From assembly GCF_014490485.1 (NCBI RefSeq), contig NZ_JACTVA010000048.1:1-40745 (forward strand): DNA of 40,745 nt. The letters are read 5' to 3'. How positions within the stretch are numbered: the first letter of the stretch is position 1; every line of letters starts with the position of its first letter. Positions 2,623 through 28,355 of the stretch are shown in pieces. Source of the DNA: Teichococcus aerophilus (GTDB lineage Bacteria; Pseudomonadota; Alphaproteobacteria; Acetobacterales; Acetobacteraceae). Below the pieces are notes generated by a model. It worked only from the letters and a program-made list of their open reading frames with translations. It was not told where the DNA came from and ran no database searches. The position numbers and the translations under genes are program-made.

Positions 2623-2872
2623 GAAGGCCGGGGAAAGGAATTCCCCGGGCCCCTTCTTTTCTTTTTTCGAGTTTTTTGCGTGGGGCTGTTGAAGCCGTGC
2701 GCTTGAGAGACGGCTGGGTGCGCCGGAGGTCTAGGACCTCCGGCGACTGAGGGTTCAGCCCGCGCGGCCCATTATCAAAGTCATCAAGCAGCACCCCCTC
2801 CCAGTCCTGAAGTGCCTCGCCAAACTGGCAGAAAGAGAAGAAGGGGGCCGGGGAATTCCTTCCCCGGCCTTC
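2623..2872. repeat. family I intergenic element, copy 1 (inverted orientation)
   Basis: A 250-bp element filling most of the 425-bp gap 2473-2897. It begins GAAGGCCGGGG and ends with the inverse. Each end forms a hairpin (arms CCGGGGAA/TTCCCCGG with a GGAA-type loop, lower stem GAAGG/CCTTC) followed on the inner side by a T-rich run, so each end reads as an intrinsic terminator for transcription entering the element. At 2721-2745 lies a perfect palindrome with 11-bp arms CGCCGGAGGTC and loop TAG. The right end lies 25 bp past the stop of the TctC gene (2898) and is probably its terminator. Reverse-complemented, the interior aligns along its length with 11959-12206 and 28109-28355. Confidence 0.88.
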
Positions 2873-2897
2873 CGCTCCCTACGTCCAGCGCGGCGCT

Positions 2898-3890
2898 TCA
2901 GCCTTCGAGTCTCACCCCGGCCGCCCGGGCGACGTCGCCCCATTTGCGGATTTCGCTGGCGACGAAGGCGTTGGCTTCCTCGATCGTCTGGGGCGCGGCG
3001 GCGCCGCCGAGTTCCAGCACGCGGGCGGCGATGCGGGGGTCGCGCAGCAGGGCGGTGACGTCGGTGTTCACGCGTTCGGCGATGGCGCGCGGCGTGGCGG
3101 CGGGGACGCAGAGGCCGGCCCAGCCGATGGCGTCGTAGCCGGGCAGGGTCTCGGCGATGGCCGGGACGTCGGGCAGCTGTGGCGCGCGGCCGGCGGAGGT
3201 GACGGCGATGGCCTTGATGCGGCCGCCCTGGATGTGCGGCAGGGCGCTGGCGACGCTGTCGAACATCATCGGGATGTTGCCGCCGAGCAGGTCGGCCATG
3301 GCGGGGCCGGAGCCGCGATAGGGCACGTGCGTCAGCTTGACCCCGCCGCGCGCGGCGAACATTTCCGCCGAGAGGTGCTGCGAGGTGCCGGGGCCACCGC
3401 TGCCGTAGTTGATGCCGCCGGGGTCGGCCTTCGCCGCCGCCAGCAGTTCCGGCACCGTGCTGGGCGCGAAGGCGGGGTTGGCCACGATCACCAGCGGCAC
3501 GGTGAAGACCGTGGTGATGTAGGTGAAGTCCTTCACCGCGTCGTAGGGCAGGTTCGGGATGATGCTGGGGTTGATGCCGTTGGTGCCACTGGTGGAGGCG
3601 ACCAGCGTGTAGCCATCGGCCGTGGCGCGCGCGCCGGCTTCCATGCCGACGACACCGGCGCCGCCCGCGCGGTTTTCCACCACCAGGCGCTGCGGCCACT
3701 GGCGGGAGAGTTCGTCGGCGATATAGCGCAGGATGGTGTCGGTCGCCTGGCCTGGCGGGAACGGGATGAGCAGGCGGACGGGGCGGGTAGGCCAGGGTTC
3801 GGCGGCCAGCGAGATGCCGGAGGTCGCGGCGGCGCCGGCGAGGGCGAGGCCGGCGCCGAGCAACTGGCGGCGGGCCGGGTGGCGAAGCAT
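2898..3890 (-). CDS. TctC/Bug family periplasmic solute-binding protein (orphan)
   Basis: A 330-residue tripartite tricarboxylate transporter substrate-binding protein. The N-terminus (ATG at 3890) has two arginines in ARRQLLGAG followed by a hydrophobic stretch and LAAEPWP, a Tat-like signal peptide. Mature-protein family hallmarks are WPTRPVRLLIPFPPGQATD near residues 32-50, VVENRAGGAGVVG, the HVPYRGSGPAMADLLGG ligand-loop region and a C-terminal GVRLEG. These proteins bind carboxylates or other small acids in the periplasm. No TctA or TctB membrane gene is adjacent, so it is an orphan, as is common for the large Bug expansions in Roseomonas-like and Bordetella-like genomes. A longer reading frame upstream lacks a plausible signal peptide. 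Ligand unknown. Confidence 0.93.
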   Translation of the reverse strand: MLRHPARRQLLGAGLALAGAAATSGISLAAEPWPTRPVRLLIPFPPGQATDTILRYIADELSRQWPQRLVVENRAGGAGVVGMEAGARATADGYTLVASTSGTNGINPSIIPNLPYDAVKDFTYITTVFTVPLVIVANPAFAPSTVPELLAAAKADPGGINYGSGGPGTSQHLSAEMFAARGGVKLTHVPYRGSGPAMADLLGGNIPMMFDSVASALPHIQGGRIKAIAVTSAGRAPQLPDVPAIAETLPGYDAIGWAGLCVPAATPRAIAERVNTDVTALLRDPRIAARVLELGGAAAPQTIEEANAFVASEIRKWGDVARAAGVRLEG

Positions 3891-4027
3891 GAGCAGTCTC
3901 CGGACAGAAAATCCGCACCGGTATGCTGTTGGCCGAAGGGGCCGATCAAGTGAGTGGGGCTGTCCTATCTGTCGGCGGGGCGCGCTGAAGAGCAGGGCGC
4001 TGCCCATGTTCCGGCCAGCAAACCGGC

Positions 4028-4092
4028 AGAAAAAAGAAGGATCAAACCTGTAGGTTTGATGGGGAGTTCCCTCCCTGGCCTTTCTTTCGCTT
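4028..4092 (-). terminator. terminator for the ABC exporter gene; solo family II-type repeat end
   Basis: Read on the minus strand, this has GGCCAGGGAGGGAACTCCCC followed by a hairpin with arms ATCAAACC/GGTTTGAT (4041-4060, 4-nt loop) and then CCTTCTTTTTT, an intrinsic terminator about 85 bp past the ABC exporter stop. The layout (GGCCAGGGR box, perfect hairpin, YTTCTT run) is the same as the right ends of the repeats at 6534-6819 and 20608-20890, but the hairpin sequence differs completely while pairing is kept. No matching left end was found, so it is called a solo or decayed end. Confidence 0.68.
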
Positions 4093-4176
4093 CCGGCGCT
4101 GACCGGCGGCGGATCGACGCGGCAGGCAAGCCCCGATCGTCTGCCTGACCGCGCGAGGGGCGTCGTCGGTGATGCT

Positions 4177-6042
4177 CTAGGCGCCGATGAAGCCGCCGGA
4201 TTGCCGCTGCCACAGCCGGGCGTAGGGGCCGTCCTGCTCCAGCAGCTGGGCGTGGGTGCCTTGCTCGACGATGCGGCCGTGTTCCAGCACCACCAGCCGG
4301 TCCATGGAGGAGAGGGTGGAGAGGCGGTGGGCGATGGCGATGACCGTCTTGCCCTGCATCAGCCGGTCCAGCGACTGCTGGATGGCGGCCTCGACTTCGG
4401 AATCGAGCGCGCTGGTGGCTTCGTCCAGCACCAGGATGGGGGCGTTCTTCAGCAGCACGCGGGCGATGGCGACGCGCTGCCGCTGGCCGCCGGAAAGCTT
4501 GACGCCGCGTTCGCCCACATGGGCGTCGTAGCCGGTGCGGCCGCGCCAGTCGGACAGGTCGTGGATGAAGGCTTCGGCCTCGGCATCGCGGGCCGCCTGC
4601 TCGATCTGTTCCTGGGTGGCGTCGGGGCGGCCGTAGCGGATGTTGTCGCGGATGGAGCGGTGCAGCAGGGCGGTATCCTGCGTCACCATGCCGATGGCGC
4701 CGCGCAGGCTTTCCTGCGTGACAGTGCCGATATCCTGGCCATCGACCAGGATGCGGCCGCCCTCCGGGGTGAAGAAGCGCAGCAGCAGGTTGACCGCCGT
4801 GGTCTTGCCGGCGCCGGAATGGCCGACGAGACCCACGCGCTCCCCCGGCCGGATGCGGAGGTCGAGGTCCTGCAGCACGCCGCTGTCCCGCCCATAGGCG
4901 AAGCGGACATGCTGGAAGTCGATCTCGCCCTTGGTGACGCGCAGCGGCTGGGCGCCTTCCGGGTCCGGCGCCGTGGGGGGCACGGCGATGCTGCCGGTGG
5001 CTTCCTGCACCACGCCGATATTCTCGAAGATGCCGGCCACGTTGAAGGCGACCCAGCCGGAGATGTTGGCGATCTGCCAGGCCATCGGCAGCGCGGCGGC
5101 GACGGTGGCGACCGGGATGTCCCCCCGGTTCCACAGCGTCAGGGAAATGGCCGCCATGCTGGTCAGCATGATGGCGTTGAGGGTGGAGAGCATCAGGCTG
5201 TTCAGCGTGACCAGCCGCATCTGCCGCTGGAAGGCGGCGGTGAGGCCGAGCATGCCTTCGCGGACGAAGGCGTCCTCCTGCTCCGACTTTGCGAACAGCT
5301 TGAGGGTGAGGATGTTGGTGTAGCTGTCGACGATGCGTCCGGTCAGCAGGCTGCGCTGTTCGCTGGCGACGCGGGCCCGCACCCGCATGCGCGGCACGAC
5401 GTAGCGCAGCAGGCAGGCATAGGCGACGAACCACAGCAGGATGGGCGCGGCCAGCCACAGATCGGCGGTGGCGAGGTAGATGATGGCGCCGGTGCCGTAG
5501 ACCAGGATGTACCAGACGGCGTTGATGGACTGCATCACGCTCTCACGCAGCGCCGGGCCGGCCTGCATGACGCGGTTGGCGATGCGGCCGGCGAAATCTT
5601 CCTGGAAGAAGGCCCAGCCCTGGCGGACGACGTGCCAGTGGCTCTGCCAGCGGATCAGGCTGGTGACGGTGGCGTTGATGGCCTGCTGGCCGACCAGGTT
5701 CTGCGTGAAGATGGCCAGCGGGCGGGCGATGAGCAGCACCGCGGCCATGCCCAGCAGCGGTGCCCAGGCCTCGGCGAACAGGGTGCCGGGGGCGTGGCTG
5801 CCGAGCAGGCCGATGACATGGCCGATGAAGACCGGGATGAGGCCGTCGAGCAGCGCGACGGCCAGGCCCGCGATGAACAGCAGCACGAAGAGCAGCCGCG
5901 CCTGGCGGATGAAGTACCAGTAGAAGCCGAGCAGGTTGGCCGGCGGCGGCTGCACCGGCACGGGGACGCCGAAGGCCGCGCTGGCGTTCTGGCCGGGTGG
6001 CGTGACAGGGTCGATCAGCGATTCGAGGGGGAGGCGGGGCAT
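4177..6042 (-). CDS. ABC exporter, fused membrane and ATPase domains (MsbA-like)
   Basis: A 621-residue half-transporter of the type I ABC exporter class. About six transmembrane segments lie between residues 35 and 340, beginning GFYWYFIRQARLLFVLLFIAG. The C-terminal ATPase has Walker A GHSGAGKT near 407-414, the signature LSGGQRQR, Walker B ILVLDEATSALD and the switch histidine in AIAHRL. Such proteins work as dimers in the inner membrane and flip lipids, peptides or drugs outward. The start is taken at ATG 6040-6042 (MPRLPLESL); longer upstream frames have no family match. The stop TAG lies inside an ATGCTCTAG-type repeat end. It is transcribed divergently from the small membrane gene at 6131. 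Substrate is not predictable. Confidence 0.9.
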   Translation of the reverse strand: MPRLPLESLIDPVTPPGQNASAAFGVPVPVQPPPANLLGFYWYFIRQARLLFVLLFIAGLAVALLDGLIPVFIGHVIGLLGSHAPGTLFAEAWAPLLGMAAVLLIARPLAIFTQNLVGQQAINATVTSLIRWQSHWHVVRQGWAFFQEDFAGRIANRVMQAGPALRESVMQSINAVWYILVYGTGAIIYLATADLWLAAPILLWFVAYACLLRYVVPRMRVRARVASEQRSLLTGRIVDSYTNILTLKLFAKSEQEDAFVREGMLGLTAAFQRQMRLVTLNSLMLSTLNAIMLTSMAAISLTLWNRGDIPVATVAAALPMAWQIANISGWVAFNVAGIFENIGVVQEATGSIAVPPTAPDPEGAQPLRVTKGEIDFQHVRFAYGRDSGVLQDLDLRIRPGERVGLVGHSGAGKTTAVNLLLRFFTPEGGRILVDGQDIGTVTQESLRGAIGMVTQDTALLHRSIRDNIRYGRPDATQEQIEQAARDAEAEAFIHDLSDWRGRTGYDAHVGERGVKLSGGQRQRVAIARVLLKNAPILVLDEATSALDSEVEAAIQQSLDRLMQGKTVIAIAHRLSTLSSMDRLVVLEHGRIVEQGTHAQLLEQDGPYARLWQRQSGGFIGA

Positions 6043-6130
6043 GCGGGCAGGCAGGACCCGACCCGTGCCGGAGTCAAGGCACGCGCGAGTGACAGGGCGC
6101 TCACCCCTGGGCGCCTGGCGGAGGAATGGC

Positions 6131-6460
6131 ATGCGGCGACCCGGCTTCATCCTGCTGAACGGCCTGGCCTGGGTGGGCATCCTGGCGCTGGCGGGGCTGG
6201 CGCTGGCGGTGGTGCGGTTGCTGGGCTTCCCCGGCGTGCTGATCCTGGGGCTGCTGACGACGCTGATCTGCGTCAGCGCCGACCTCTCCCGCGACGTGCC
6301 GACCTGGAGCCGGGGCATGTTCGAGTCGCGTGGCACGCGGCGGACGGAGGCGGAGCGGGAGGACGGGCGGCAGGATGCGGCGAGCCTGGGCTACTACCGG
6401 GGCTGCGGCTTCGTGCTGATCGCGGCCGGGTTGGCCGGGACGGTGTGGGAGCTTTGGTGA
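6131..6460 (+). CDS. small membrane protein, unknown function
   Basis: A 109-residue protein starting MRRPGFILLNGLAWVG, with a good ribosome site GGAGG six bases before the ATG. It has two adjacent hydrophobic segments (about residues 7-28 and 32-50), a charged middle (RTEAEREDGRQD) and a third hydrophobic segment near the C-terminus (CGFVLIAAGLAGTVWELW). I do not recognise a family. It shares an 88-bp intergenic region with the divergent ABC exporter. A family II repeat follows 74 bp downstream. Coding is supported by the ribosome site, the membrane pattern and the lack of a better frame. Confidence 0.66.
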   Translation: MRRPGFILLNGLAWVGILALAGLALAVVRLLGFPGVLILGLLTTLICVSADLSRDVPTWSRGMFESRGTRRTEAEREDGRQDAASLGYYRGCGFVLIAAGLAGTVWELW

Positions 6461-6533
6461 GGCTGCCGCCTTGCCGGTGAGAGTGCGGAGGCGGGCTGCC
6501 TGGGTCGAGGGGCCACGGGCCCGTCCAAGCGGG

Positions 6534-6819
6534 GTCGACATTCGGCCCTGGATAGGAAGGCCAGGGGAGGAATTCCCCGGACCCCATCCTTCTTTTGCGA
6601 GTCTTTCGGGCGTGGCTGTGGCGGCGTTGGCCTTTTCAGGCCAGGGGCGGGGTCATGCCGGAGGCTGATGGTTCAGCCGAGATGACTCTTTCTCACGGCT
6701 GCAACTGCCGGTTCCGAAGCCCCACGCCAACTAACAGAAGAAAGATGGCGTAAACGTATACGTTTACGCAGGTGAATTCTTTCCCCTGACCTTCCCTCTC
6801 GCCTAAGCCGAATGTCGAC
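6534..6819. repeat. family II intergenic element, copy 1
   Basis: A 286-bp element filling most of the 6461-6891 gap. Its outermost 12 bases are a perfect inverted repeat, GTCGACATTCGG at 6534-6545 and CCGAATGTCGAC at 6808-6819. Inside the left end is a terminator-like hairpin GGAAGGCCAGGGGAGGAATT with a T-rich tail. The right end has the matching GGGGAA box in inverse plus a perfect 22-bp palindrome at 6748-6769 (half GCGTAAACGTA). The segment 6653-6676 has a CCGGAGGCTGATGGTTCAGCC block resembling the core-flank of family I. It lies between convergent genes ending at 6460 and 6892 and probably terminates both. It aligns with 20608-20890. Confidence 0.84.
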
Positions 6820-6891
6820 TGGCCCGAGCCGGGAAGGGGGCGAATGCGCCCACAGGGCAGGCATGGCGCGCCGCATTCCTGGCCCGCGTGT

Positions 6892-8064
6892 TCAGTGCTC
6901 CATCGCCCGCGTCTCGGTCCGCACGGCCTGGGAGGAGAGGGAAGCTTCGGCGAGGGCGGGGAAGGTGCCGGGGGATACCCAGCGCACCATGTCCGTCTCG
7001 CCGCTGAAGAGGTCCGGCACCTCGGCGGCTTCCGGCGCGGTGCGGACGACAATGCCGTGCAGCATGAGCTGCGAGGGCGGGTCCGTCTCCCGCGCCGGGG
7101 GCAGCACCCGCAGGCCGAGCGTGCCGTCCGGCAGGTCCGCCTCCGGCGTCAGCGGGCGGAAGGAGAACAGCATGCCGGCCTGCGGCGCGCGCCAGTCCGG
7201 GCTGAAATAGATGTTGGTCAGGCGCTGGGGGTGCGTCTGCCGCCCCTGCAGCTCGGCGATGCCGTGGGAGGATTTCTGGTCCAGGCAGAGGGCGACGGCG
7301 CGGGAGGCCGGCGGCACCTGGAAGTGCACCGCGCCGTCCCGCGGCGTCAGCAGGGCGAATGTTTCCTGCAGCAGGGAGGTGCCGCGCGTCATCGTCTCCC
7401 CGCCGAACTGGGCGGCGAGGTCGACCAGGCTGTGCCGGGCGATCGATTCCAGGATGACGCGGGCGGCGGGGCGGCGCTGGGCCTGCAGGCGGGGCAGGCT
7501 CTCGACGATCAGGCGGGAGATCTGCTGGCCGAACCATTCGTGCACATGCACGGGGTCGCGGAAGAAGCCGTCGGGGCCGGTGCCCGGCCGGGCGGCCATG
7601 GCCTGCCGGAGCAGATCGTAGCCATCGAAGAAGGGCAGGTTGAGGCGGCGCGCGACGTCCCGCGCCCGGGCCTGCACTTCCGGCGGCCGTGCCAGCAGGT
7701 TGGGGGAGGGCAGGATCAGCAGCACCGGCAGGCAGCCGGTGGCGAGTACGCGGCGGCACAGATCCATCACCGCCTGGGTCCAGCTTTCCGGCTCCACATG
7801 GCCGGTATCCATCCAGCGGCCGTCATTCACGCAGAGGTCGAGGATGCAGAACTGGTAGCGGGAGAAATCCACCCTGTCCGCCCGGTAGAAGACGAAGCCG
7901 CTGGTACTGGCGCCGAGGGAGTAGTTGTCGAAGCGCGACAGCGCGGCCGAGTGCCGGAAGTAATCCGCGTAGCCACCCTTGATGACGCCGTTGGAGGTAC
8001 CGAGCAGGCAGACGGAGAAGGCATCGTGCCCCGGTGTCGCTTCGGCGCCTTGCTGGGGCTGCAT
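6892..8064 (-). CDS. SGNH/GDSL-hydrolase-like protein
   Basis: A 390-residue protein whose first 200 residues resemble the SGNH hydrolase fold: block I LLGTSNGV with the candidate nucleophile Ser24, block II glycine in SLGASTSG near 49-56, block III asparagine in LCVND (Asn80), and block V DPVHVHE with Asp170 and His173. The C-terminal half (about 210-390) is a beta-rich region of unknown type. There is no clear signal peptide, so it is probably cytoplasmic. The architecture resembles carbohydrate O-acyl esterases or transferases acting on surface glycans, but no glycan cluster is present here. The ATG at 8062-8064 is used; no strong ribosome site is seen. Confidence 0.7.
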   Translation of the reverse strand: MQPQQGAEATPGHDAFSVCLLGTSNGVIKGGYADYFRHSAALSRFDNYSLGASTSGFVFYRADRVDFSRYQFCILDLCVNDGRWMDTGHVEPESWTQAVMDLCRRVLATGCLPVLLILPSPNLLARPPEVQARARDVARRLNLPFFDGYDLLRQAMAARPGTGPDGFFRDPVHVHEWFGQQISRLIVESLPRLQAQRRPAARVILESIARHSLVDLAAQFGGETMTRGTSLLQETFALLTPRDGAVHFQVPPASRAVALCLDQKSSHGIAELQGRQTHPQRLTNIYFSPDWRAPQAGMLFSFRPLTPEADLPDGTLGLRVLPPARETDPPSQLMLHGIVVRTAPEAAEVPDLFSGETDMVRWVSPGTFPALAEASLSSQAVRTETRAMEH

Positions 8065-8139
8065 GAATCTTCCTTCGTATGGACGGGCCGGAGACCGTGG
8101 TCCGGCGCAGGCACGGGGCTGGTGGGCCAGGGTGGGTGG

Positions 8140-8236
8140 CTAGAGCGTGATGGCCTGCGGTGACATCACCGGGAAGCCTGAATCACGCGGTCAGGCAAAG
8201 GCGTGGAGCGGGGTGCGCGGACGCATCATGCTCTAG
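8140..8236. repeat. short palindromic element with CTAGAGC ends
   Basis: A 97-bp sequence with near-perfect inverted ends, CTAGAGCGTGATG at 8140-8152 and CATCATGCTCTAG at 8224-8236 (one mismatch). Repeats with CTAGAGCATGATC-like ends are scattered widely in alphaproteobacterial intergenic regions; this looks like a local version. Its right end supplies the TAG stop of corA (8233-8235). Related ends ATGCTCTAG and GCTCTAG lie exactly at the stops of the genes ending at 4177 and 22171. Confidence 0.68.
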
Positions 8237-9225: not shown

Positions 9226-9301
9226 GGCAGGTGGTTCCCGGCAGAGGAGGGGGCGGGCAAGCGCGAGGCGCGCGCCGGCGGGCGGGGCCGGCGCGGCCGG
9301 T

Positions 9302-11231: not shown

Positions 11232-11285
11232 CTTCTACCGGTAAGCGCGGCAGGGGGCGTAGCAGCGCCGGCCGGGAGGGGCCAG

Positions 11286-11324: not shown

Positions 11325-11441
11325 ACAGGCTAGGGAGCAGAACACACGTCGACGGCCAGCGCCCGTGGCGCTGCCCGCATGCCGAAGCCGGGCTAAGCCC
11401 AACTGGATCGCGCGGGGCCGCGAGGCCCCGCGCAAACCGGT

Positions 11442-11958: not shown

Positions 11959-12206
11959 GAAGGCCGGGGAAGGAATTCCCCGGACCCCTTCTTTATTTTT
12001 GCGAGTTTAGCGTCACGCCTCAGGATTGAGAGCGGGCTCTGCTTGATGAATCAATGATGGGCCACGTGGGCTGAACCGTCAGTCGCCGGAGGTCCAGGAC
12101 CTTCGGCGAACCCAGCCGTGCTTAAGACCAGAGCCCTCAGCAGCCCCCGACCGAAGACTTGGAAAAAAGGAAAGAAGGGGCCCGGGGAATTCCTTCCCCG
12201 GCCTTC
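11959..12206. repeat. family I intergenic element, copy 2
   Basis: A 248-bp element with the same ends as 2623-2872. The left end has CCGGGGAAGGAATTCCCCGG followed by a CTTCTTTATTTTT run; the right end is its inverse. The central palindrome at 12084-12108 has arms CGCCGGAGGTC and GACCTTCGGCG, so one pair becomes G-U if transcribed on the plus strand. Shared interior blocks include CTGCTTGATGA and GGGCTGAACCGTCAGTCG. The right end lies 16 bp past the stop of the TctC gene at 12223 and is probably its terminator. Confidence 0.9.
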
Positions 12207-16215: not shown

Positions 16216-16602
16216 GAAGGCTGGGGGAAGGAATTCCCCCAGGCCCCCATCTTCTTTTTTCGAGTTTGGGCGGGGGTGGGGTCGTGGCGCTGGGAGTTCG
16301 ACGGTTGTGGGTTTTTGGCCCGGCGGATTGTTTGAGGCGGCTCTAGAAGCTTGATGGGCTTACCCGTGGCTACCTGCTTCGATGGGGCTTCGCCCAGTTG
16401 TTTGTGCTTCGGTTTCGCGTTGGTACGGAGCATTCCCGGTTAACCCGGAATTTTTTACAGCAGTCCCACAGGCGTCGGGCGAAGCGCCTAGGCCCCAAAG
16501 GGCCATGGGAGAGCTTCACCACGTTCCAACTTCTCCCTGAAGCGCCCTCCCAGACTCGCAAAAATAAAAGAAGGGGTCCGGGGAATTCCTTCCCCGGCCT
16601 TC
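16216..16602. repeat. family I-end element with a different core
   Basis: A 387-bp element that fills the gap 16194-16622 between the convergent genes ppc and the CHAP protein. The ends are family I (GAAGGCTGGGGGAAGGAATT on the left, the inverse of GAAGGCCGGGG on the right), each with a T-rich inner flank ending in a CGAGTTT or GCGAGTCT box. The core lacks the 11-bp-arm palindrome; it instead holds an imperfect hairpin with a T6 tail near 16434-16459 (ATTCC and GGAAT arms). Stops lie 23 bp and 21 bp outside the ends, so it probably terminates both genes. Confidence 0.78.
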
Positions 16603-20322: not shown

Positions 20323-20394
20323 GGCGCTTTGGGTCCCCCTTCGCTGCGACTCGGGGGCTGTTGTCGGCTGGCTGGGGGCGGCTGTCGAGGGGGA

Positions 20395-20470
20395 TGGAGG
20401 GGCAGGCAGGGGGCGCTGCGCCCTGTCCTCCGCTGGCGTAGCAGTGCTACCCCAGACCCCGCCGGGTGTT
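20395..20470. repeat. family III-type repeat end (left)
   Basis: GC-rich hairpin block GGGGGCGCTGCGCCC at 20409-20423, then CTACCCCAGACCCCGCCGG and a short T run near 20468. It matches the left end of the 33301-33582 element and, in inverse, the block at 21071-21123. It lies upstream of the enoyl-CoA hydratase. Confidence 0.65.
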
Positions 20471-20607
20471 TTAGCGCGGGCGGGTTTGGGCGTGTGCGCC
20501 ACAGGCCGGCGGGGATTTCGTCTTGGTGCCTATGCCTCATCGCGGTCCGCCTGACTGCAATGCGGTAGGGCTTGGCATTCAATAGGGCTTGGCATTCATA
20601 AGAATGG

Positions 20608-20890
20608 ATCGACGTTCGGTTTGGACAGGAAGGCCGGGGAAGGAAATCCCCGGACCCGTTCTTTTTTCTGCGGGTCTTTCGGTCGTGGATGTGGCGGCGT
20701 CGGCTTTCCCGGCCCGGACCAGGGTGACGCCGGAGGCTGCTGGTTCAGGCCAGATAGGCTGTGATCTTTGTCACGCCGCACCTGCTGCTGAGTCCCACGC
20801 CAATGACAAAAGAAATGGCGTAAACGTATCCGTTTACGCAGGGGAATTCCTTCCTCTGACCTCCTCTTCCACACTGAACCAACTGTCGAC
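20608..20890. repeat. family II intergenic element, copy 2
   Basis: A 283-bp element in the 805-bp gap 20323-21127. It aligns with 6534-6819 from the left border ATCGACGTTCGG to the right border TGTCGAC. The left terminator-like hairpin GGCCGGGGAAGGAAATCCCC is followed by a CTTTTTT run. The 22-bp palindrome at 20818-20839 has one mismatched base pair compared with copy 1. No gene is supported inside; open frames here are the same repeat-borne frames seen in copy 1. The rest of the gap (20891-21070) shows nothing convincing. Confidence 0.84.
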
Positions 20891-21070
20891 CAGCCATATT
20901 GCATCCGCTTTTAGCGGCTTTTGCTTCCAACATGATCATTAGCCAGAGCGTGGCTTTTGCTGGCGTGCGTTTGAGATGATTCAGGCCTTCGGCCATCTCA
21001 CCTCAGGCAGGCTTGTTCCAGTTTCTCAAAGAAGGATGCCGCTCCCACCACAGGGCGGGCAACTCGCAGC

Positions 21071-21123
21071 GGGGTCCGGGGTGGACTTTCCACCCCGGCG
21101 GGGGCCAGGGGGCAGCGCCCCCT
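21071..21123 (-). terminator. repeat-borne GC hairpins after mutM (family III end)
   Basis: Directly past the mutM stop on its strand: a GGGGGCGCTGCCCCC hairpin, then a second one with arms CCGGGGTGG and CCACCCCGG around AAAGT. It matches the right end of 33301-33582. No long T run follows, so it may be a stability or attenuation structure rather than a classic terminator. Confidence 0.62.
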
Positions 21124-21127
21124 GCCT

Positions 21128-21970
21128 TCACCGCTGCGTCTTTGCGCAAAAGAACGTGCTGCGGCCGGACTGCACGATGCGGGAGACGCCGTGGCAGCCG
21201 GGTGCGCCGGGGCAGAGCGGGCAGGGCTGCCCTTCGCGGTCGTAGACGGAGAAGCGGTCCTGGAAGTGGCCGAGTTCCCCATCGGCCTGGACGTAGTCGC
21301 GCAGGGAGGAGCCGCCGGCGTCGATCGCGTCGTTCAGCACGGCCTTGATGGCGGGCACCAGCCGTTCGGCGCGGGCGCCAGGGATGGTGCCGGCGAGGCG
21401 GCGCGGGGAGAGGCCGGAGCGGAACAGTGCTTCCGCCACATAAATATTGCCGAGGCCGGCCACCACGCCCTGGTCCAGCAGCGCCGCCTTGATCGGGGTC
21501 TGCTTGCCGGCGAGGGCGGCGCCGAGGATGGCGGGGGTGAAGGCGTCGTCCAGTGGTTCCGGCCCCATGGCGGCCAGCAGGCGGTGGGTATCTTCCTCCG
21601 CGGTGGGGATCAGGTCGACGCTGCCGAAGCGGCGGGGATCCACGAAGCCGACATGGGTGCCGCCAGCGGTTTCCAGCAGCAGGTGCTCATGGGCGGGGGG
21701 CGGGGTGTTGGCGCCACGTGGGCGGGCCACCATGCGGCCGGACATGCCCAGGTGGATCAGCACCGACTGGCCGTTGGAGAGGCGCATCAGCATGTACTTG
21801 CCGCGCCGGCGGAAGCCCTCGACCCGGGCGCCGGTCAGGGTGGCGGCGAGGCCGGCGGGGAAGGGCCAGCGCATGCCATCGCGCCGCGTCTCCGCATGCT
21901 GGATGGTCTGGCCGGTCAGGATGCCGGCCAGGCCGCGCATCACGGTTTCGACTTCGGGAAGCTCGGGCAT
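21128..21970 (-). CDS. mutM: formamidopyrimidine-DNA glycosylase
   Basis: A 280-residue base-excision enzyme that removes 8-oxoguanine and formamidopyrimidine. The catalytic N-terminus PELPEVET follows the ATG at 21970; the H2TH region contains [12 protein letters not shown]. The C-terminal zinc finger is unusual: CPLC (Cys250, Cys253) is followed by an insertion PGAPGCHG, and the last pair is CAKT, with Thr278 where the fourth cysteine usually stands. Cys259 or His260 in the insertion could replace the lost ligand. The RSTFFC loop is kept. The frame extends upstream through a repeat but MPELPEVET fixes the start. It keeps its place near dnaA. Confidence 0.96.
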
Positions 21971-22021
21971 GGGGGCGATGTAAGCCGCGTGCCGGGTGCT
22001 GGCGAGGGGAGTGGGATACGG

Positions 22022-22055
22022 AAAAGGCCGGGGAAGGATATCCCCGGCCTTTTTC
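22022..22055. terminator. bidirectional intrinsic terminator
   Basis: A perfect 13-bp stem AAAAGGCCGGGGA / TCCCCGGCCTTTT with a 6-base loop and A/T tracts on both sides. It lies downstream of the minus-strand gene ending at 22171 and upstream of mutM, separating the two units. The stem sequence is the same as the family I repeat ends, so it may be a solo end. Confidence 0.82.
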
Positions 22056-22170
22056 ACGCATTTGGATGGAGCCAGCCGGGCCTGGAGCATGATGCATCCG
22101 CACCATGCTTCATGCTTGTGTTTGGCCGCTCAATTCAGGCTTTCGGTGCTTCCACCTCAAGCCAACAGCT

Positions 22171-22554: not shown

Positions 22555-22557
22555 GGA

Positions 22558-22830
22558 TCAGCGCCCCAGCAGGCGGGCGAGCAGGTAGCCGGTACCGGCG
22601 GCCATCAGGATCGCGGTGAAGGGGCGCTCCTTCACGAGGCTGGCGACGGTGTCGGCCTCCTTCTGCGCGGTGTGGCTGACATGCCCGGCAAAATCCTGGG
22701 CGCGGCCGGCGGCGCGGCTGACGGCAGGCGTCACGCGCTCTTCCATCAGGTGCTCGACCTTGCGGCGAAGGTCGGCGATGCGCTCCTCGACGGGCTCGAG
22801 GTCGATGCCGTGGATCGGGTTCGAAGCCAT
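22558..22830 (-). CDS. DUF883 (ElaB/YqjD-like) membrane-anchored protein
   Basis: A 90-residue protein: a long charged amphipathic helix (residues 10-68, with EERIADLRRKVEHLMEERV) and one C-terminal membrane segment FTAILMAAGTGYLLARLLGR. E. coli YqjD and ElaB of this family tether ribosomes to the membrane in stationary phase; whether this homologue does is not known. The start has AGGAGA about five bases upstream. A weak EcfG-like pattern (GAAGC, 17 bases, CGTT) lies at 22867-22892, matching the -35 in only 3 of 5 positions. It forms a unit with the holin-like gene. Confidence 0.82.
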   Translation of the reverse strand: MASNPIHGIDLEPVEERIADLRRKVEHLMEERVTPAVSRAAGRAQDFAGHVSHTAQKEADTVASLVKERPFTAILMAAGTGYLLARLLGR

Positions 22831-22952
22831 GTCGTCTCTCCTAGTGAATAAAAGGATGAGCGGGATAACGGGTCGGGCCGCTGGCCAGCTTCAGCTTGGC
22901 CGGTCTCGCGGCCATTTCCAACCCCTCCCGCAGGAGGGGCCGGAGGGATGGA

Positions 22953-23144
22953 TCAGCGGGTGGCGCGGTCGATGCTACGGCCGGCGCGCTCGGCGGGGCC
23001 CGGCGGATCGACCGCGTCGCGGATGGCGGTGCCGGCATTGTCCAGGCTGCGGCCGGCGCGTTCGGCGGGGCCAGGCTCGTGGCAGGCGGCCAAGGGGGCC
23101 AGCAGCGCCAGGGCCGTGAGGGCTTGCAGGGTCAGTTTGCGCAT
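22953..23144 (-). CDS. small lipoprotein with an internal duplication
   Basis: A 63-residue protein with a signal peptide ending in the lipobox LAAC (Cys21), followed by two copies of GPAERAGRS(L/I)D at residues 25-35 and 49-59. This resembles entericidin-like and other short stress lipoproteins, but I do not assign a family. A ribosome site AAGGAG lies about eight bases before ATG 23144. An EcfG-type promoter candidate ends about 30 bases upstream. Location in a stress island supports a stress role. Confidence 0.74.
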   Translation of the reverse strand: MRKLTLQALTALALLAPLAACHEPGPAERAGRSLDNAGTAIRDAVDPPGPAERAGRSIDRATR

Positions 23145-23174
23145 TCCGGTGTCTCCTTCGCCGTATGCCGCCCT

Positions 23175-23200
23175 AACGCGGCGTCAGCGTGACAAGTTGC
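23175..23200 (-). promoter_or_regulatory. candidate EcfG-type promoter for the small lipoprotein
   Basis: On the minus strand: GCAAC (23200-23196), a 17-base spacer and CGTT (23178-23175). The alphaproteobacterial general stress consensus is GGAAC, 16-18 bases, CGTT; one mismatch in the -35. It lies 30 bp before the start codon. Confidence 0.55.
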
Positions 23201-23337
23201 GGAAAGCGTGAGCAGTGGCGTTCAGTTTTGCCATCTGGAGTAGGATCTGGGGGCCGTCAGCCGGGTGCGGCCGGGTGGTCCGGGCCAGGGCGGCGGCTGG
23301 GGCGCAGCGGCAGCCCGGCAGCGTTCGTAACGGGCTG

Positions 23338-25152
23338 TCAGGCCTGGTGGTTGCCCATGGCGCGGCCGGACAGGTCACCCTCCCGCCGGCGGAGCGGGAA
23401 GCGGACGCGCAACTCGGTACCGGCGCCGGGGGTGGCCTGGCGTTCGATCTCGCCGCCCAGATGTTGCGCGAAGCCCTGGATGAGGCGCATGCCGATGCCC
23501 TGCTCCTCCTCGTGCGGGCCAAGGCCCAGGCCGTCGTCGTGCACCAGCAGGATGACGGCTTCGAATTCTTCGTCCTCGCCTTCCGGGGTCATGACGCCGT
23601 CATGGCGCACGGCAATGGTGATGGTCCCGGTGCGGGTATCGGGGAAGGCGTGCTTGATGCTGTTGGTCACCGCCTCGGTCACCAGCAGGGCCATGGAGAC
23701 GGCCTGGTCGGTGACAATCTCCATGTCCTCCGCCTCGACCACCAGGCGGATGCGGCGGTCGGGGATCTCGCCCAGCGCGTTGAAGAGCTGCTTGGACAGC
23801 TCCTCCAGGAACGGGCGCAGCGCGATCGCCTCGAAGGTGCGGTTTGTGTAGAGGTGGCGGTGCAGCGTCGCCAGGGCCTGGACCCGGTCCCGCGCCGTGC
23901 TGAACTCGGCCCTCGCGGCGGGGTCGCGCAGCCGGCCGGCCTGCAGGTTCAGCAGGGAGGCGACAATCTGCAGGTTGTTCTTCACCCGGTGGTGGATCTC
24001 GGCCATCAGCAGGTCACGCTGGCGGAGGGCGCCGTTCAGCTGCTCCTCCCGCGCCGCGATGGCGATGGCGGCGTCGTTGAAGGCCTGTTCCAGCGCGCGG
24101 ACCTCTTCCGGCTCGCCCCGGCTGGGCAGGCCGGGGAAGGGCAGGCCGGGGCGCCAGCCCCGCACGCGGCTGGCCAGCAGGCGCAGCGGGCGGGCGATGG
24201 CGATATCGGCGCCGACGACGATGACGATGAGGCAGGCCAGCAGGAACACCGCCAGTTCCAGCGCCCGGCGCAGCAGCAGGCTGCGGGCATTGTCGCGGAT
24301 CTCGGTGGTGGGCAGGCCGACGACAAGGCGCAGCCCCTGCTCCAGGTCCGAGATGGCGTAGGCGAAGTGGCCGCCGCCGCGGGAGAAGCCTTCCAGTGCC
24401 TGGTTGGCCTGCAGCGCGAGCAACTGGGTCATCAGCGGGGCGGCGGGCAGGTCGGATTCCTCCGCGCCGGTCAGCGGCAGCGGGGTGTTCTGTCGGTCCA
24501 TCAGCCAGACATGGTCCGGCGTGACCGCCATGGACTGGCTTTCCTTGCGGATGAACACGTCCAGCAGCAGGCCGGCGGCGACGATCATCTCCACCCGGCC
24601 GTTGCGGATGATGGGCACGGCGCCGGTCAGGATCGGCCGGTTGGTCAGGGTACCGGTCTTGAAGCGGTTGATGACAAAGGGGGGTGCGCCTTCGGTGACG
24701 GGCGCGCGGGCGGCCCGCTGGGCGAGGTCGACATATTCCTGGTTGCCGCGCGCCATGTCGGTCGGCACGCCGCTGCACATCATCCGGCCTTCGCCATCCA
24801 GCAGCCAGATATTGGAATAGCGGTTGCGGTGGATGCCGAGCAGGGTGGCCAGCCGGCGCTGGCATTGCGGGGAGGCGGCGTCTACCAGCACGTCGCTGGT
24901 GGCGACGCCCTGCAGCAATTCCCGCATGCCGGACAGGGCGGCGCCATGGCGTTCGGCCGCAACCTCACCCAGCAGGGTGACGGTACGGAGGCCTGAGGCG
25001 CGTTCGGATTCGTAGCCGAGGATGGCATTGGCACCGGCGATGCCGATGACGGGGATGCTGGCGACGATGAGTAGCAGCAGCATCCGCCCCCGCACTGAGC
25101 GGAGTAGGACCCACGGCCCCCACCTTGAAGGTGGGGACTGTGGGGACGTCAC
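23338..25152 (-). CDS. membrane sensor histidine kinase, HisKA_2/HWE family (PhyK-like)
   Basis: A 604-residue sensor: TM1 (about 23-45), a periplasmic Cache-like domain (46-290), TM2 (about 297-318), a linker with HAMP-like features and the HisKA_2 motif EIHHRVKNNLQ with the phospho-histidine at His388, followed by an ATPase domain with EAVTNSIKHAFP and DDGLGLG. In related bacteria kinases of this type, encoded beside nepR, feed phosphate to PhyR. The start is GTG 25152-25150; its GTGA overlaps the nepR stop. A strong hairpin (arms CCCCACC/GGTGGGG, 25118-25136) lies just inside the coding start. No receiver domain is attached. Specific PhyR partnership is inferred from location. Confidence 0.9.
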   Translation of the reverse strand: MTSPQSPPSRWGPWVLLRSVRGRMLLLLIVASIPVIGIAGANAILGYESERASGLRTVTLLGEVAAERHGAALSGMRELLQGVATSDVLVDAASPQCQRRLATLLGIHRNRYSNIWLLDGEGRMMCSGVPTDMARGNQEYVDLAQRAARAPVTEGAPPFVINRFKTGTLTNRPILTGAVPIIRNGRVEMIVAAGLLLDVFIRKESQSMAVTPDHVWLMDRQNTPLPLTGAEESDLPAAPLMTQLLALQANQALEGFSRGGGHFAYAISDLEQGLRLVVGLPTTEIRDNARSLLLRRALELAVFLLACLIVIVVGADIAIARPLRLLASRVRGWRPGLPFPGLPSRGEPEEVRALEQAFNDAAIAIAAREEQLNGALRQRDLLMAEIHHRVKNNLQIVASLLNLQAGRLRDPAARAEFSTARDRVQALATLHRHLYTNRTFEAIALRPFLEELSKQLFNALGEIPDRRIRLVVEAEDMEIVTDQAVSMALLVTEAVTNSIKHAFPDTRTGTITIAVRHDGVMTPEGEDEEFEAVILLVHDDGLGLGPHEEEQGIGMRLIQGFAQHLGGEIERQATPGAGTELRVRFPLRRREGDLSGRAMGNHQA

Positions 25153-25358
25153 TGAGACCGGTCCTGCTCAATCAGTTTCAAGAGTTCCTCGGGGATCGGC
25201 TCACGGGCGATGTCGTCATACATGGCGTGCAGGCTGCGTTGCAGCCACAAGTCAAAGGCGGCGTCGGGCGTGCCCTTCCGGGCACGTCCCTCAGCCGTGC
25301 GTTCGGAGGCATCGGCCTCCTCCGCCGCTAATGCGCGCTTGTCAGACTGATCGTCCAT
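25149..25358 (-). CDS. nepR: anti-sigma factor NepR
   Basis: A 69-residue protein. NepR holds EcfG inactive until phosphorylated PhyR, through its sigma-like domain, lures it away. The family core is visible from residue 38: FDLWLQRSLHAMYDDIAREPIPEELLKLIEQ, the two helices that grip sigma; the N-terminal 35 residues are variable. The start ATG 25358 shares a base with the ecfG stop (TAATG) and the stop overlaps the kinase start (GTGA), so sigma, anti-sigma and sensor are made in coupled order. Confidence 0.94.
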   Translation of the reverse strand: MDDQSDKRALAAEEADASERTAEGRARKGTPDAAFDLWLQRSLHAMYDDIAREPIPEELLKLIEQDRSQ

Positions 25359-26029
25359 TAGCTTTCCAGGTGCAGACCCTGCTCGCTGGCCATCTTGTTG
25401 CTCACACGGTTCGTAGCACTCCGGCGGCGGGTTTCGCCAGCCTGGGACTGAGCCGTATTGCGCTTGGCGGCCTTGGTGGGCTGGTCGCCCGTCAGCCAGG
25501 CCTCGAGCTGCCGGCGAGCACGGAACACGCGGCACTTGGCGGTGCCGACGGCGCAACCCATGACTTCGGCGGCTTCCTCGTAGGACATGCCCTGCACCGT
25601 CACCAGCAGCAGCGCGGTACGGTGGTCGGCGGGGAGGTCGGCCAGACGCATGCGGAGCTCCCGCAGGGCCAGGCTGTCTTCCTGCGCGGCGGGGCGGGCC
25701 AGCGCCTCAGCGGGGGCGTTGTCCATGTCGCAGGTGTCGCGGCGGCGGCGGATATCGGACAGGAAGCGGTTCCGCAGGATGCGGAACATCCAGGCGCCGA
25801 AATTCGTGCCGGGGGTGAAGCTGTGCTGGGCTGCCAGCGCGTTGCTGACGGCGGCCTGCACCAGGTCGTCGGCATCCGCCCGGTTCCGGGTCATGGACAC
25901 GGCCTGCACGCGCAAGCGCGGCAGCAGGGCCACCAGCTGGTCGTGGAAGCTGGGACCTTCATTCACGGTGACGGCTTCTGCGGTCTCGGACGTGGCCACG
26001 TGATGGGTATCCTTGTGATCGCCTTGCAT
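25358..26029 (-). CDS. ecfG: general stress sigma factor EcfG
   Basis: A 223-residue ECF sigma factor. Region 2 covers about residues 25-95 with RNRADADDLVQAAVSNAL and FRILRNRFLSDIRRRRD; region 4 is near 122-175 with YEEAAEVMGCAVGTAKCRVFRARRQLE. It directs RNA polymerase to GGAAC/CGTT promoters under general stress. Compared with the roughly 180-residue family it has an extra N-terminal 25 and a C-terminal tail of about 45 basic residues. The ATG at 26029 (MQGDHKD) is chosen; an alternative start at 26065 (MQPALR) would add 12 residues. Pairing with nepR marks it as the EcfG proper. Confidence 0.93.
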   Translation of the reverse strand: MQGDHKDTHHVATSETAEAVTVNEGPSFHDQLVALLPRLRVQAVSMTRNRADADDLVQAAVSNALAAQHSFTPGTNFGAWMFRILRNRFLSDIRRRRDTCDMDNAPAEALARPAAQEDSLALRELRMRLADLPADHRTALLLVTVQGMSYEEAAEVMGCAVGTAKCRVFRARRQLEAWLTGDQPTKAAKRNTAQSQAGETRRRSATNRVSNKMASEQGLHLES

Positions 26030-26203
26030 GTCCGACCAATGCCGCAGCCGAAGAGCCGGTTGCATCGCCGTTAAGGGAGTCACGGGATTCACCCACACTT
26101 TTTTGTGATGAAACCCTGCCACGCCGGCGCTCATTACGCCAGAGAACCATGCCATCCAACGGACGAGACACTGTTACCAGCGACCCGAGCCGGACCAGGC
26201 ATC

Positions 26204-26710
26204 TCACCCCCGCGGCGCCCGTTCAGGAAAGCTGCGTGCCAACGCGGCGCGGGCCCGCGCAACCCGTGCCTTCACGGTGCCCACCGGCGCACCCACGATG
26301 ACGGCGGCTTCCTCATGCGACAGCCCATGGGCGCCCACCAGGATCAAGGCCTCCCGCTGCGGCAGGGGCAGGGTCTGGAGGGCGCGCCCCAGATCGTCGA
26401 TCTCGCCGTGACCCTCCTGCGGGGAGGGGCCGGCTTCATCGGCCGGCGGCATCCGCTCCAGCGCCCGGCGCTCCGTGCCGCGGCGACGGATCTGTTCCAG
26501 GAAGACGTTCCGGAGAATGAAGAACACCCAGGCCCGGGGGCTGGTTCCCGGCTCCCATTGCGATTCCGCCCGCAGGGCTCGCAGCACGGCTTCCTGCACC
26601 AGGTCGTCCGCCAGGGCGGTGTCCCGTGCCAGGAAGCGCGCGAAGGCGCGCAGGTCCGGCAGCAGCCTTGGCAAGGCGTCGCGAATCGTCTCGGCACGCG
26701 TCTCGGTCAT
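26204..26710 (-). CDS. second EcfG-like ECF sigma factor
   Basis: A 168-residue ECF sigma factor of the same group as EcfG: region 2 with DTALADDLVQEAVLRALRA and FFILRNVFLEQIRRRG, region 4 with HEEAAVIVGAPVGTVKARVARARAAL. It lacks the long tails of its neighbour and is nearer the usual EcfG length. It shares a 99-bp control region with divergent phyR. Several alphaproteobacteria keep two or more EcfG paralogues with distinct target sets; which one leads here cannot be told. A 17-spaced TGAAG/CGTT pattern upstream (26762-26787) matches the -35 in only three of five bases. Confidence 0.9.
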   Translation of the reverse strand: MTETRAETIRDALPRLLPDLRAFARFLARDTALADDLVQEAVLRALRAESQWEPGTSPRAWVFFILRNVFLEQIRRRGTERRALERMPPADEAGPSPQEGHGEIDDLGRALQTLPLPQREALILVGAHGLSHEEAAVIVGAPVGTVKARVARARAALARSFPERAPRG

Positions 26711-26809
26711 TCAGTGTCTCGGACATCTTGCGATAAACAACGCCTTGGCGACCTTTCCCACAACGCGCAAAACAGTGCCAGACTTCAGGACTGACATGAG
26801 GTGCCCTCC

Positions 26810-27535
26810 ATGAACGCCGTCACCCAAGCCGATCTGCTGCGGAGCCTGCCGCCGGCCCGCCGTTACGCCCGTGCCCTGACCGGCGGCCAGAGCGCCGGCG
26901 ACGCGCTGGTGGGCGCCGCCCTGAAGGCCGGGCTGCCGGACCTGCCGGCCCGCCTGGCGCTATATGCTGGCGTGACCCGGCTGGCGCCGCCGCCGGCCAA
27001 GCCGCCGCAGGGCGCGGTGCTGCCCGCCCGCCAGCGCCAGCTTCTGCTGCTGACGGCGCTGGAGGAACTCTCGCTCGACGAGGCGGCCGCCGTGCTGGGC
27101 ATCACCACCGAGGTGGCCGAGACCGAGCTGGAAGAGGCCCGCACCGCCCTGCGCAGCGCCGCCGCGACGGACGTGCTGGTGATCGAGGACGAGCCGATCA
27201 TCGCCATGGATGTGCGGCAGCTGGTGGAAGCCTGCGGCCACCGCGTCGTCGGCGTCGCCGCGACCGAGGCGCAGGCGGTGCGGCTGGCGGAGACCAAGCG
27301 CCCCGGCCTGATCCTGGCCGACGTGAACCTGGGCGCGGGCGGCGACGGCATCACCGCCGTGGGCCGTATTCAGGAACAGCTGAAGGTGCCGGTGATCTTC
27401 GTGACCGCCTACCCCGAGCGGCTGCTGACGGCGGAACGGGTGGAGCCGGCCTTCGTCATCTCCAAGCCCTTCGAGCCGCTGGCGCTGGCGATCGCCACCT
27501 ACCAGGCCGTGTCCTCTACGGTGCCGATCGAGTGA
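26810..27535 (+). CDS. phyR: general stress response regulator PhyR
   Basis: A 241-residue protein. The N-terminal 115 residues are a sigma-factor mimic (region 4-like DEAAAVLGITTEVAETELEEART at 90-112). The C-terminal receiver has acidic Glu126/Asp127, phospho-acceptor Asp171 (LILADVNLG), Thr199 and Lys219. When phosphorylated, the mimic binds NepR and releases EcfG. The ATG at 26810 has TGAGG eight bases upstream; a GTG at 26801 falls on that site and is rejected. The mimic domain is slightly shorter than usual (PhyR is often about 265 residues), with a Pro-rich gap PPPAKPPQG at 60-68 where region 2 ends. Confidence 0.96.
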   Translation: MNAVTQADLLRSLPPARRYARALTGGQSAGDALVGAALKAGLPDLPARLALYAGVTRLAPPPAKPPQGAVLPARQRQLLLLTALEELSLDEAAAVLGITTEVAETELEEARTALRSAAATDVLVIEDEPIIAMDVRQLVEACGHRVVGVAATEAQAVRLAETKRPGLILADVNLGAGGDGITAVGRIQEQLKVPVIFVTAYPERLLTAERVEPAFVISKPFEPLALAIATYQAVSSTVPIE

Positions 27536-27550
27536 GCGAACAGCGAAGCT

Positions 27551-27576
27551 GAAACCGGGGCGTCATCCGTCACGTT
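27551..27576 (+). promoter_or_regulatory. candidate EcfG-type promoter for csbD-DUF1328
   Basis: GAAAC at 27551-27555, a 17-base spacer and CGTT at 27573-27576, one mismatch from the GGAAC/CGTT general stress consensus. It lies 58 bp before the csbD start and downstream of phyR, so the two stress genes may be induced by EcfG itself. Confidence 0.6.
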
Positions 27577-27633
27577 GCTCTGCCATCGTACCACCGGATG
27601 GGCCGGGCGGGGACGGAGCGGAGGACAGGCCCG

Positions 27634-27831
27634 ATGACACGGGACCGCATCGCCGGCAGCTGGAAGCAGATGACGGGCATGATGAGGGAAGGCTGGGGCA
27701 GGCTGGTGGCGGATGAGACCGCCATCCGCCGGGGCCAGCGGGACCGGTTGATCGGGCGCATCCAGCATCGCCACGGCGTGATGCTGGACCTGCCGCCCCG
27801 GCACGCGCACGGCACCGCCGGTCGGGCATGA
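27634..27831 (+). CDS. CsbD-family stress protein
   Basis: A 65-residue hydrophilic protein with the CsbD pattern DRIAGSWKQMTGMMREGWGRLVADE near residues 4-28, then a basic RGQRDRLIGRIQHRHG. CsbD is a general stress protein of unknown mechanism. The ATG has GGAGGA eight bases upstream. It follows phyR and the EcfG-like promoter. The C-terminal PPRHAHGTAGRA is not part of the family domain. Confidence 0.88.
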   Translation: MTRDRIAGSWKQMTGMMREGWGRLVADETAIRRGQRDRLIGRIQHRHGVMLDLPPRHAHGTAGRA

Positions 27832-27866
27832 CCCCGATCCACCCCGGCCTCTAAGGACTCCCTGCC

Positions 27867-28034
27867 ATGCTCTACTGGACTCTCATCTTCCTGGTCATCG
27901 CCCTGGTGGCCGGCGTACTTGGCTTCAGCGGCATCGCCTCGGCTGCCAGCGGCATCGCCAAGATCCTGTTCGTCGTGTTCCTGGTGCTGTTCCTGATCTC
28001 GCTGATCGCCGGGCGCGGCTGGGCCTTCGGTTAA
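27867..28034 (+). CDS. DUF1328 small membrane protein
   Basis: A 55-residue protein, [20 protein letters not shown] then [19 protein letters not shown], the typical two-helix DUF1328 (YtjA-like) form. These tiny membrane proteins are commonly found in stress regulons beside csbD genes. It starts 35 bp after csbD with AAGGA nine bases upstream and is followed by a strong terminator, so csbD and this gene form one unit. Confidence 0.93.
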
Positions 28035-28062
28035 GCGCTCTCCCACATCGTTTGACGGAAAA

Positions 28063-28093
28063 GGCGGGTCCCGGTTGGGGCCCGCCTTTTTTT
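28063..28093 (+). terminator. intrinsic terminator of the csbD operon
   Basis: Stem GGCGGGTCCC / GGGGCCCGCC with loop GGTT, followed by seven T residues. It lies 28 bp after the DUF1328 stop. Confidence 0.93.
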
Positions 28094-28108
28094 GGCTGCT
28101 GAAGGGGG

Positions 28109-28355
28109 GAAGGCCAGGGAATGAATTCCCCGGACCCCTTCTTTATTTCTTCGAGTTTGGTGTGGCGCTTCAGAACTGAGGGCGGACGCTGCTTGATGAT
28201 TTTTAAATGGGCCACAAGGGCTGAACCGTCAGTCGCCGGAGGTCTAGGACCTCCGGCGCACCCAGCCGTCATTCAGGTGCACCGTTTCGACAGCCACGCC
28301 CCAAAAACTTGAAAACAGAAAAGAAGGGGTCTGGGGAATTCCTTCCCCAGCCTTC
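28109..28355. repeat. family I intergenic element, copy 3
   Basis: A 247-bp element directly after the csbD terminator. It has the same ends, interior blocks (CTGCTTGATGA, GGGCTGAACCGTCAGTCG) and central palindrome as copy 2 (28234-28258, arms CGCCGGAGGTC/GACCTCCGGCG, loop TAG), in the same direction. The right end lies 23 bp past the stop of the solute-binding protein at 28379 and is probably its terminator. Confidence 0.9.

Follow-up and report, generated by a model that had tools for sequence, protein, structure and literature searches.

What kind of DNA is the repeat that stands three times at full length on contig NZ_JACTVA010000048.1 of Teichococcus aerophilus (assembly GCF_014490485.1)? 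The window analysed here is the whole stretch of 40,745 nucleotides (nt), and it belongs to a genome (G000, hereafter the own genome) of 5,663,844 bases in 140 contigs that is 99.9% complete. An original prediction, made from the letters alone, had placed the three copies, described their ends as inward-facing terminators and suggested a MITE-like or REP/BIME-like family that has become terminator hardware. Our favoured answer, to which we give a probability of roughly 60%, is that the repeat is a non-coding, non-autonomous mobile element of Roseomonas and Pseudoroseomonas, REPIN- or MITE-like in build, whose ends are terminators and which serves as a two-way terminator between convergent genes.

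A repeat with hairpin ends and a conserved core

Copies 1 to 3 lie at 2623..2872 (minus strand), 11959..12206 (plus strand) and 28109..28355 (plus strand). They are supported by alignment and by nhmmer, which matches copy 1 over positions 1-248 with an E-value of 3e-77, and they align from end to end with a mean column identity of 87%. The coordinates and the whole-length alignment first proposed were exact, and the ends, the T-rich runs, the central hairpin with 11-bp arms and the shared interior blocks are all present as described. The consensus of these copies, which we call A-type, is 248 nt long, and an interior of about 150 nt is conserved along with the ends. Each A-type end follows one plan: a stem capped by an NGAA loop, a bulge of three bases that GAAGG/CCTTC closes, and a T-rich run behind it. 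The loop is written NGAA because its first base varies among copies, the commonest base staying below 50% in 51 copies, and the GNRA loop proposed earlier is therefore not a feature of the family. In copy 2 the left end (11959..12000, plus strand) and the right end (12165..12206, minus strand) are intrinsic-terminator-like hairpins with a T run that read inward, both folding at -21.2 kcal/mol (z -3.25 and -1.39, respectively); over the six ends of copies 1-3 the folds range from -13.9 to -22.2 kcal/mol and the z-scores from -1.1 to -3.3. The core holds, in this order, a small hairpin GGCTGA-NNNN-TCAGTC (12069..12084, plus strand) and the hairpin with 11-bp arms (12084..12108, plus strand), both placed by folding and covariation. 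As had been predicted, the elements have no transposase-sized open frame.

The family is dense and occurs in two orientations, which bears out the earlier expectation. Searches with the 20-nt end hairpin at up to three mismatches gave 11 matches in the window against none in each of 100 shuffles, and 858 in the own genome (427 forward, 431 reverse) against none for a reversed control. The likeness extends well beyond the ends: a full-length search of the own genome yielded 535 first-look candidates, and all 40 that were scored match at least 241 of 248 positions, 39 of them with 81-84% identity, the other being the query (100%). Neither outcome that the original prediction named as refuting it came about: copies far exceed a handful, and the alignments hold outside the end hairpins. 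Paired elements were counted in two samples. Sample 1 (440,745 bases) consists of the window and 20 stretches from contigs that already had matches, and sample 2 (400,000 bases) of positions 1-200000 of contig C1 and 200 kb of other contigs. In the first there are 65 pairs of inward-facing ends separated by under 700 nt, plus 23 unpaired ends, or 88 units; the second contains 24 pairs and 9 singles. Together the samples cover roughly 15% of the genome (840,745 bases) and contain 89 pairs. Scaled up to the whole genome, sample 1 predicts about 840 paired elements, a figure with an upward bias, the two samples together 600 and sample 2 alone 340; we estimate that the genome holds 340-600. Elements make up 17,429 of 69,328 intergenic bases in sample 1, and 20% and 6% in two other sets. 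Repeats that fill about a quarter of the intergenic DNA, as in sample 1, could break assemblies and mislead the prediction of terminators and small RNAs. Contig C1 has just 10 A-type ends in positions 1-200000, against one every 3-5 kb in the remaining fetched sets. The idea that C1 is a secondary replicon, which would explain its low density, is not supported, as contig C50 alone yielded a RepB-type gene.

The hairpins at the ends look like terminators in one direction. A simple terminator rule, applied to the 135 of 148 own-genome ends with an E-value of at most 0.001, was passed by 124 when read inward and by 28 when read outward; three mononucleotide shuffles passed 13, 17 and 29 times. 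The stems change by compensation. The same 135 ends contain 111 double-change cells against a shuffle mean of 30 (maximum 42), with one pair occurring as C-G 75 times, T-A 19, G-C 19 and A-T 11, and true partners pair at 88%, compared with 45-68% when the partners are slid by one or two columns. Among 37 ends from congeners the count is 43 against 11.9 in shuffles (maximum 23). Judged from these sequence features, RNA polymerase would be expected to stop at the ends in vivo. A near-perfect 22-nt palindrome, GCGTAAACGTATACGTTTACGC, lies between end hairpin and T run at 22 places in the genome (in the window, for example, at 6748-6769 and 20818-20839), and all 7 such places in the fetched stretches are inside elements.

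Pairing was also followed over longer distances. Copy 2 as a whole could fold on itself at -140.1 kcal/mol (z -9.5), and in one copy the 42-nt ends are 93% complementary. Over 51 copies, end-to-end pairing gives 22 double changes across all 54 pairs against 14.4 in shuffles (maximum 27), and a weak signal is left when only the end-hairpin columns are taken (8 against 3.0, maximum 7). Local pairing within the two ends is clearer in the same copies, with 6 and 8 double changes against 1.0 (maximum 4), and long-range pairing of both ends was rejected as the conserved structure. For the core, 41 mixed sequences from several species give 17 double changes against 3.9 in shuffles (maximum 9). The outside flanks show no ungapped inverted pairing and a gapped score of 5.95 against 5.69 expected (standard deviation 0.15), a small excess that is perhaps due to a subfamily with outer arms. 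The outer-arm motif GATCGACATTCGGC has 26 matches in sample 1, 14 of them within 30 nt of an element tip; a single shuffle gave 9 matches in total.

The same core is found between ends of a second, C type, whose outer sequence is unrelated to that of the A type and which follows a similar plan of hairpin, ACCCC and T's. Among the 41 core loci with both ends seen, 36 have A/A ends, 5 have C/C ends and none is mixed; one more locus has one end unseen. Further C-type loci, all newly counted, hold the core between C ends in 7 of 20 cases.

Gene ends and their occupancy among relatives

Inward pairs lie outside predicted genes (0 of 89 inside one, and 0 of 65 in sample 1 by itself) and collect where genes end. 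In sample 1 there are 21 pairs in 46 convergent gaps, 40 in 281 tandem gaps, 3 in 47 divergent gaps and 1 at an edge; in sample 2 the numbers are 11 in 54, 11 in 217 and 2 in 55. When the samples are pooled, with elements as the unit counted (a few gaps hold more than one), convergent gaps carry 32 pairs per 100, against 5 per 102 in divergent gaps (p = 3.7e-7) and 51 per 498 in tandem gaps (p = 2.3e-7). The median distance from a tip to the stop that it faces is 35 nt in sample 1 (n = 82) and 19 nt in sample 2 (n = 33), and to a start 149 nt (n = 46) and 139 nt (n = 15). In sample 1, 42 of 92 convergent stops have an A-type end in the right orientation no more than 150 nt away, as do 39 of 110 tandem stops (gaps of at least 100 nt); for starts the figures are 22 of 110 in tandem and 4 of 94 in divergent gaps. 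The proportion for convergent stops is 19 of 52 in a second contig set and 6 of 56 on contig C1. Another terminator-like hairpin is present in none of the 49 stop-to-tip gaps shorter than 45 nt, out of 82, and in 4 of the 33 longer ones. Tandem gaps show no orientation preference (13 to 9, p = 0.52).

We hypothesize that two inverted ends flank the conserved core and that each end would work as an inward intrinsic terminator, made of a GC stem, the NGAA loop and the T run. A transcript leaving the gene on either side would reach the nearest end and stop within the element, which between convergent genes would amount to a two-way terminator. Copies would spread with the help of a trans-acting enzyme other than any recognisable Y1 transposase. 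Because the repeat would stop transcription arriving from either side, it should persist chiefly at operon ends, and these are indeed where the copies lie; it may have been tolerated there first and used later. At gene 3' ends the element is tolerated and probably used, and it may benefit the host there.

The full-length query has matches in the own genome and in 15 of 16 congeners, G008 being the exception, and in none of 21 genomes of other genera. A survey of 120 genomes of the same family, just three of them from the own genus, counted the A hairpin at up to one mismatch: there are 571 occurrences in the own genome, against 12 in G006 and no more than 7 in any other genome. For the C hairpin the counts are 34 in the own genome, 15 in G006, 17 in one genome of another genus and one or two in three more. 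The 17 C-type hairpins of that other-genus genome (G043, same family) have a loop of their own, which suggests an independent population. Among the matches listed, at least ten are exact, and these come from Roseomonas, Pseudoroseomonas, Plastoroseomonas and an Acetobacteraceae strain. Plasmid records gave one partial match each for the A and the C element, on Pseudoroseomonas cervicalis plasmids, and phage records gave no match. No description of such a family in Roseomonas or Acetobacteraceae was found in the titles and abstract openings of the open-licence literature.

The original prediction proposed to look for filled and empty sites in sister strains. Between species, orthologous gene ends do differ in occupancy, which indicates mobility. 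All 17 genomes examined contain orthologues of metH and polA. In 12 of them metH has the same next gene; in G001, G002, G006, G012 and G013 another gene follows. Among those 12, the gap behind metH holds an unambiguous A-end pair in three (G010, G011 and the own genome, the elements of G010 and G011 being alike), a partial one in G003 and no A-end match in the other eight. Between polA and the same next gene there is an A pair in the own genome, a C pair in each of G001, G007 and G013, one A end in G015 and no match in G002; in G006 polA is followed by an A pair in the opposite orientation and by a different next gene. At L057:6032-6901 an element begins 6 nt past the stop in the own genome, and none precedes the same next gene in G001, G002 and G007; the contigs of G006, G013 and G015, which end 27, 103 and 112 nt past the gene, are little informative. 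At L057:10958-12679 the native terminator is retained in three species; an A element comes after it in the own genome and a C element in G002, and in G001 nothing does. In the window, the stop of the gene upstream of copy 3 lies 74 nt before the element, with a native terminator-like hairpin between them. The copies also cluster by species. The nearest neighbour belongs to the same species for 51 of 51 and 17 of 19 copies, terminal branches are long, and the most similar pair within the own genome is 95% identical.

The three full-length copies are real, and the window contains further members besides them. An A-type element of the outer-arm subfamily, identified by nhmmer, end pairing and the arm motif, lies at 6556..6794 (minus strand), with GTCGACATTCGGC near 6534 and its inverted partner near 6807. 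A long element of 387 nt with A-type ends (16216..16602, no strand assigned) fills the space between two convergent genes, whose stops are 22 and 20 nt away from it, and a C-type element at 33306..33588 (minus strand) has the same core as the A-type copies by nhmmer and core comparison. Partial members are a weak single end at 4061-4083 and a lone bidirectional hairpin of the same kind at about 22022..22054 (no strand assigned). The latter is probably intergenic, upstream of where an Fpg-type gene truly starts, because the Fpg domain begins about 30 residues into the predicted frame. At 20399..21136 (no strand assigned) a C-type inverted end pair (about 20399-20470 and 21061-21136) surrounds an A-type element at 20629..20863 (minus strand), an apparent nesting that suggests that one repeat inserted into another. 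Outside the window, a C-type element at locus L169 (G000:C49:34940-35760) encloses a further inverted repeat (AGAGGCTGTTATGGAC ... GTCCATAACAGCCTCT), which may be a second case of nesting.

Weighing mobility against other origins

A number of observations weigh against a mobile element with terminator ends, or limit how far the evidence for it reaches. The contigs of sample 1 were pre-selected by their matches, and pairs are sparser elsewhere, at 5 per 200 kb on C1 and 19 per 200 kb on other contigs. Genes were called with our own codon-usage predictor, with start codons unrefined, and one single end per sample falls inside a predicted gene. The terminator rule has a high background in five dinucleotide shuffles, which passed 43, 45, 62, 47 and 55 times out of 135. 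Double-change cells are not independent, since the copies are kindred, and some are due to stem-length variants; core covariation is absent when the 51 A copies are taken by themselves (2 double changes, compared with 2.7 in shuffles). Species clustering is partly built in, because the copies were picked with an own-genome query, and neither species' copies are monophyletic. Intergenic DNA is too diverged between species for exact insertion junctions to be read. Target-site duplications of at least 3 nt were seen in 0 of 93 copies (0.37 expected at 3 nt), and at 2 nt there were 2 against 1.41 expected. No mobilising gene was found, and no autonomous parent, looked for as adjacent inward ends 700-5000 nt apart in sample 1 and 700-4000 nt apart in sample 2, was seen in 840,745 bases. 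Finally, the stop-facing end of 39 tandem pairs has a folding free energy of -18.3, against -16.9 for the start-facing end (p = 0.08; model score p = 0.14). Selection acting on the stop-facing end alone was rejected as an explanation, this difference not being significant. The earlier idea of terminator hardware is plausible, but because stop-facing ends are not significantly better kept than start-facing ones, we infer domestication rather than observe it. A purine-rich tract of about 10 nt stands on both flanks and seems to be part of the element, because it is present whether the flank faces a stop (0.70) or a start (0.69).

The alternative that survives best, improbable as we consider it, is a classic MITE, a shortened insertion sequence moved in trans by a DDE transposase. 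Long terminal inverted repeats, the lack of a transposase-sized frame, the outer-arm subfamily and the nesting would all be at home there, yet the 93 copies without a duplication of 3 nt or more and the absence of an autonomous relative from about 15% of the genome speak against it. The element is thus MITE-like in architecture, with inverted ends and no coding capacity, as first suggested, but not a classic MITE with duplications.

Membership in the REPIN or REP/BIME family, with movement by a RAYT (Y1) transposase, appears quite unlikely. An inverted doublet of hairpin palindromes that is extragenic, leaves no target duplication and has its nearest copies within the species does resemble REPINs as they are described in PMC3116915. 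However, a REP-type Y1 transposase (PF01797) has no match in the own genome, against matches in 5 of 14 controls, and 16 of 17 genomes across the genus have none, the sole match being a 36-position fragment. REP/BIME membership, the other half of the original suggestion, is therefore unsupported. Since PMC8049555 reports REPINs also in E. coli genomes that lack a RAYT, a RAYT that was later lost could still account for this pattern.

We think it just as unlikely that the repeats are immobile terminators made by the host and kept alike by concerted evolution or gene conversion. The position directly behind stops and the structural constraint on the end hairpins would agree with such an origin, as would the similar-looking hairpins behind metH in some congeners (GGCCGGGGG...CCCCCGGCC). 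However, the interior of 150 nt is conserved too, orthologous gaps differ in occupancy, one insertion stands next to a retained native terminator, and the 41 core loci include no mixed ends. Least probable of all is a structured non-coding RNA or protein-binding chromosome element with incidental terminators, for although the core covaries in the 41 mixed sequences (17 against 3.9, maximum 9) and is common to two end types, the 51 A copies show no core covariation, there is no orientation preference, and Rfam has no gathering-score match anywhere in the window (one copy gave microRNA-like and lncRNA noise at E-values of 0.02-0.89).

The favoured reading, a mobile element with terminator ends, can be extended to a bolder and distinctly tentative proposal, which we hold to be possible though less than likely. 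The repeat may represent a new class of mobile element, a "mobile double terminator", in which one core is carried between exchangeable, unrelated terminator ends, without Y1 transposase or target duplication, and which provides convergent genes with a large part of their terminators. If this is true, transposable DNA would be undergoing turnover as a major source of terminators, a process that can be followed from species to species at the ends of orthologous genes. It would also make REPIN-like spread without a Y1 transposase, and selection on inserted terminators, testable questions.

Likeness to known repeats

Four described kinds of repeat invite comparison. Inverted DNA uptake sequences of Neisseria are likewise abundant genomic repeats able to form intrinsic terminators, but what is repeated there is a word of about 10 nt, and in Roseomonas it is a unit of about 250 nt. 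Prokaryotic MITEs such as Correia elements, reviewed in PMC10969869, share with ours short length, inverted-repeat ends, lack of coding, structure and presence at many intergenic sites. The review places Correia elements immediately upstream of genes and gives them promoter activity, whereas pairs of the Roseomonas element are rare in divergent gaps (5/102). REPINs and REP doublets are close in that an inverted hairpin pair is the mobile unit, extragenic and non-coding (PMC3116915 and PMC8049555). The Roseomonas element differs in that no RAYT was found in its genome, in ends that would be directional terminators and in the conserved core between them.

The nearest described kind, and in behaviour the closest, appears to be the pneumococcal SPRITE repeat, a judgement that compares the two by description. 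In PMC10969869 a terminator role of MITEs is called no more than conceivable, with SPRITE cited. Both are dispersed, intergenic, terminator-like repeats that are enriched between convergent genes and lie near gene 3' ends; for SPRITE, co-option as a terminator has been suggested and no duplication established. SPRITE itself is AT-rich and consists of a single 18-bp duplex and a T-rich tract; the context table of its paper counts 15 + 15 copies. The Roseomonas element places two inward terminators around a conserved core in a unit of about 250 nt, and it does so in hundreds of copies and with two types of end.

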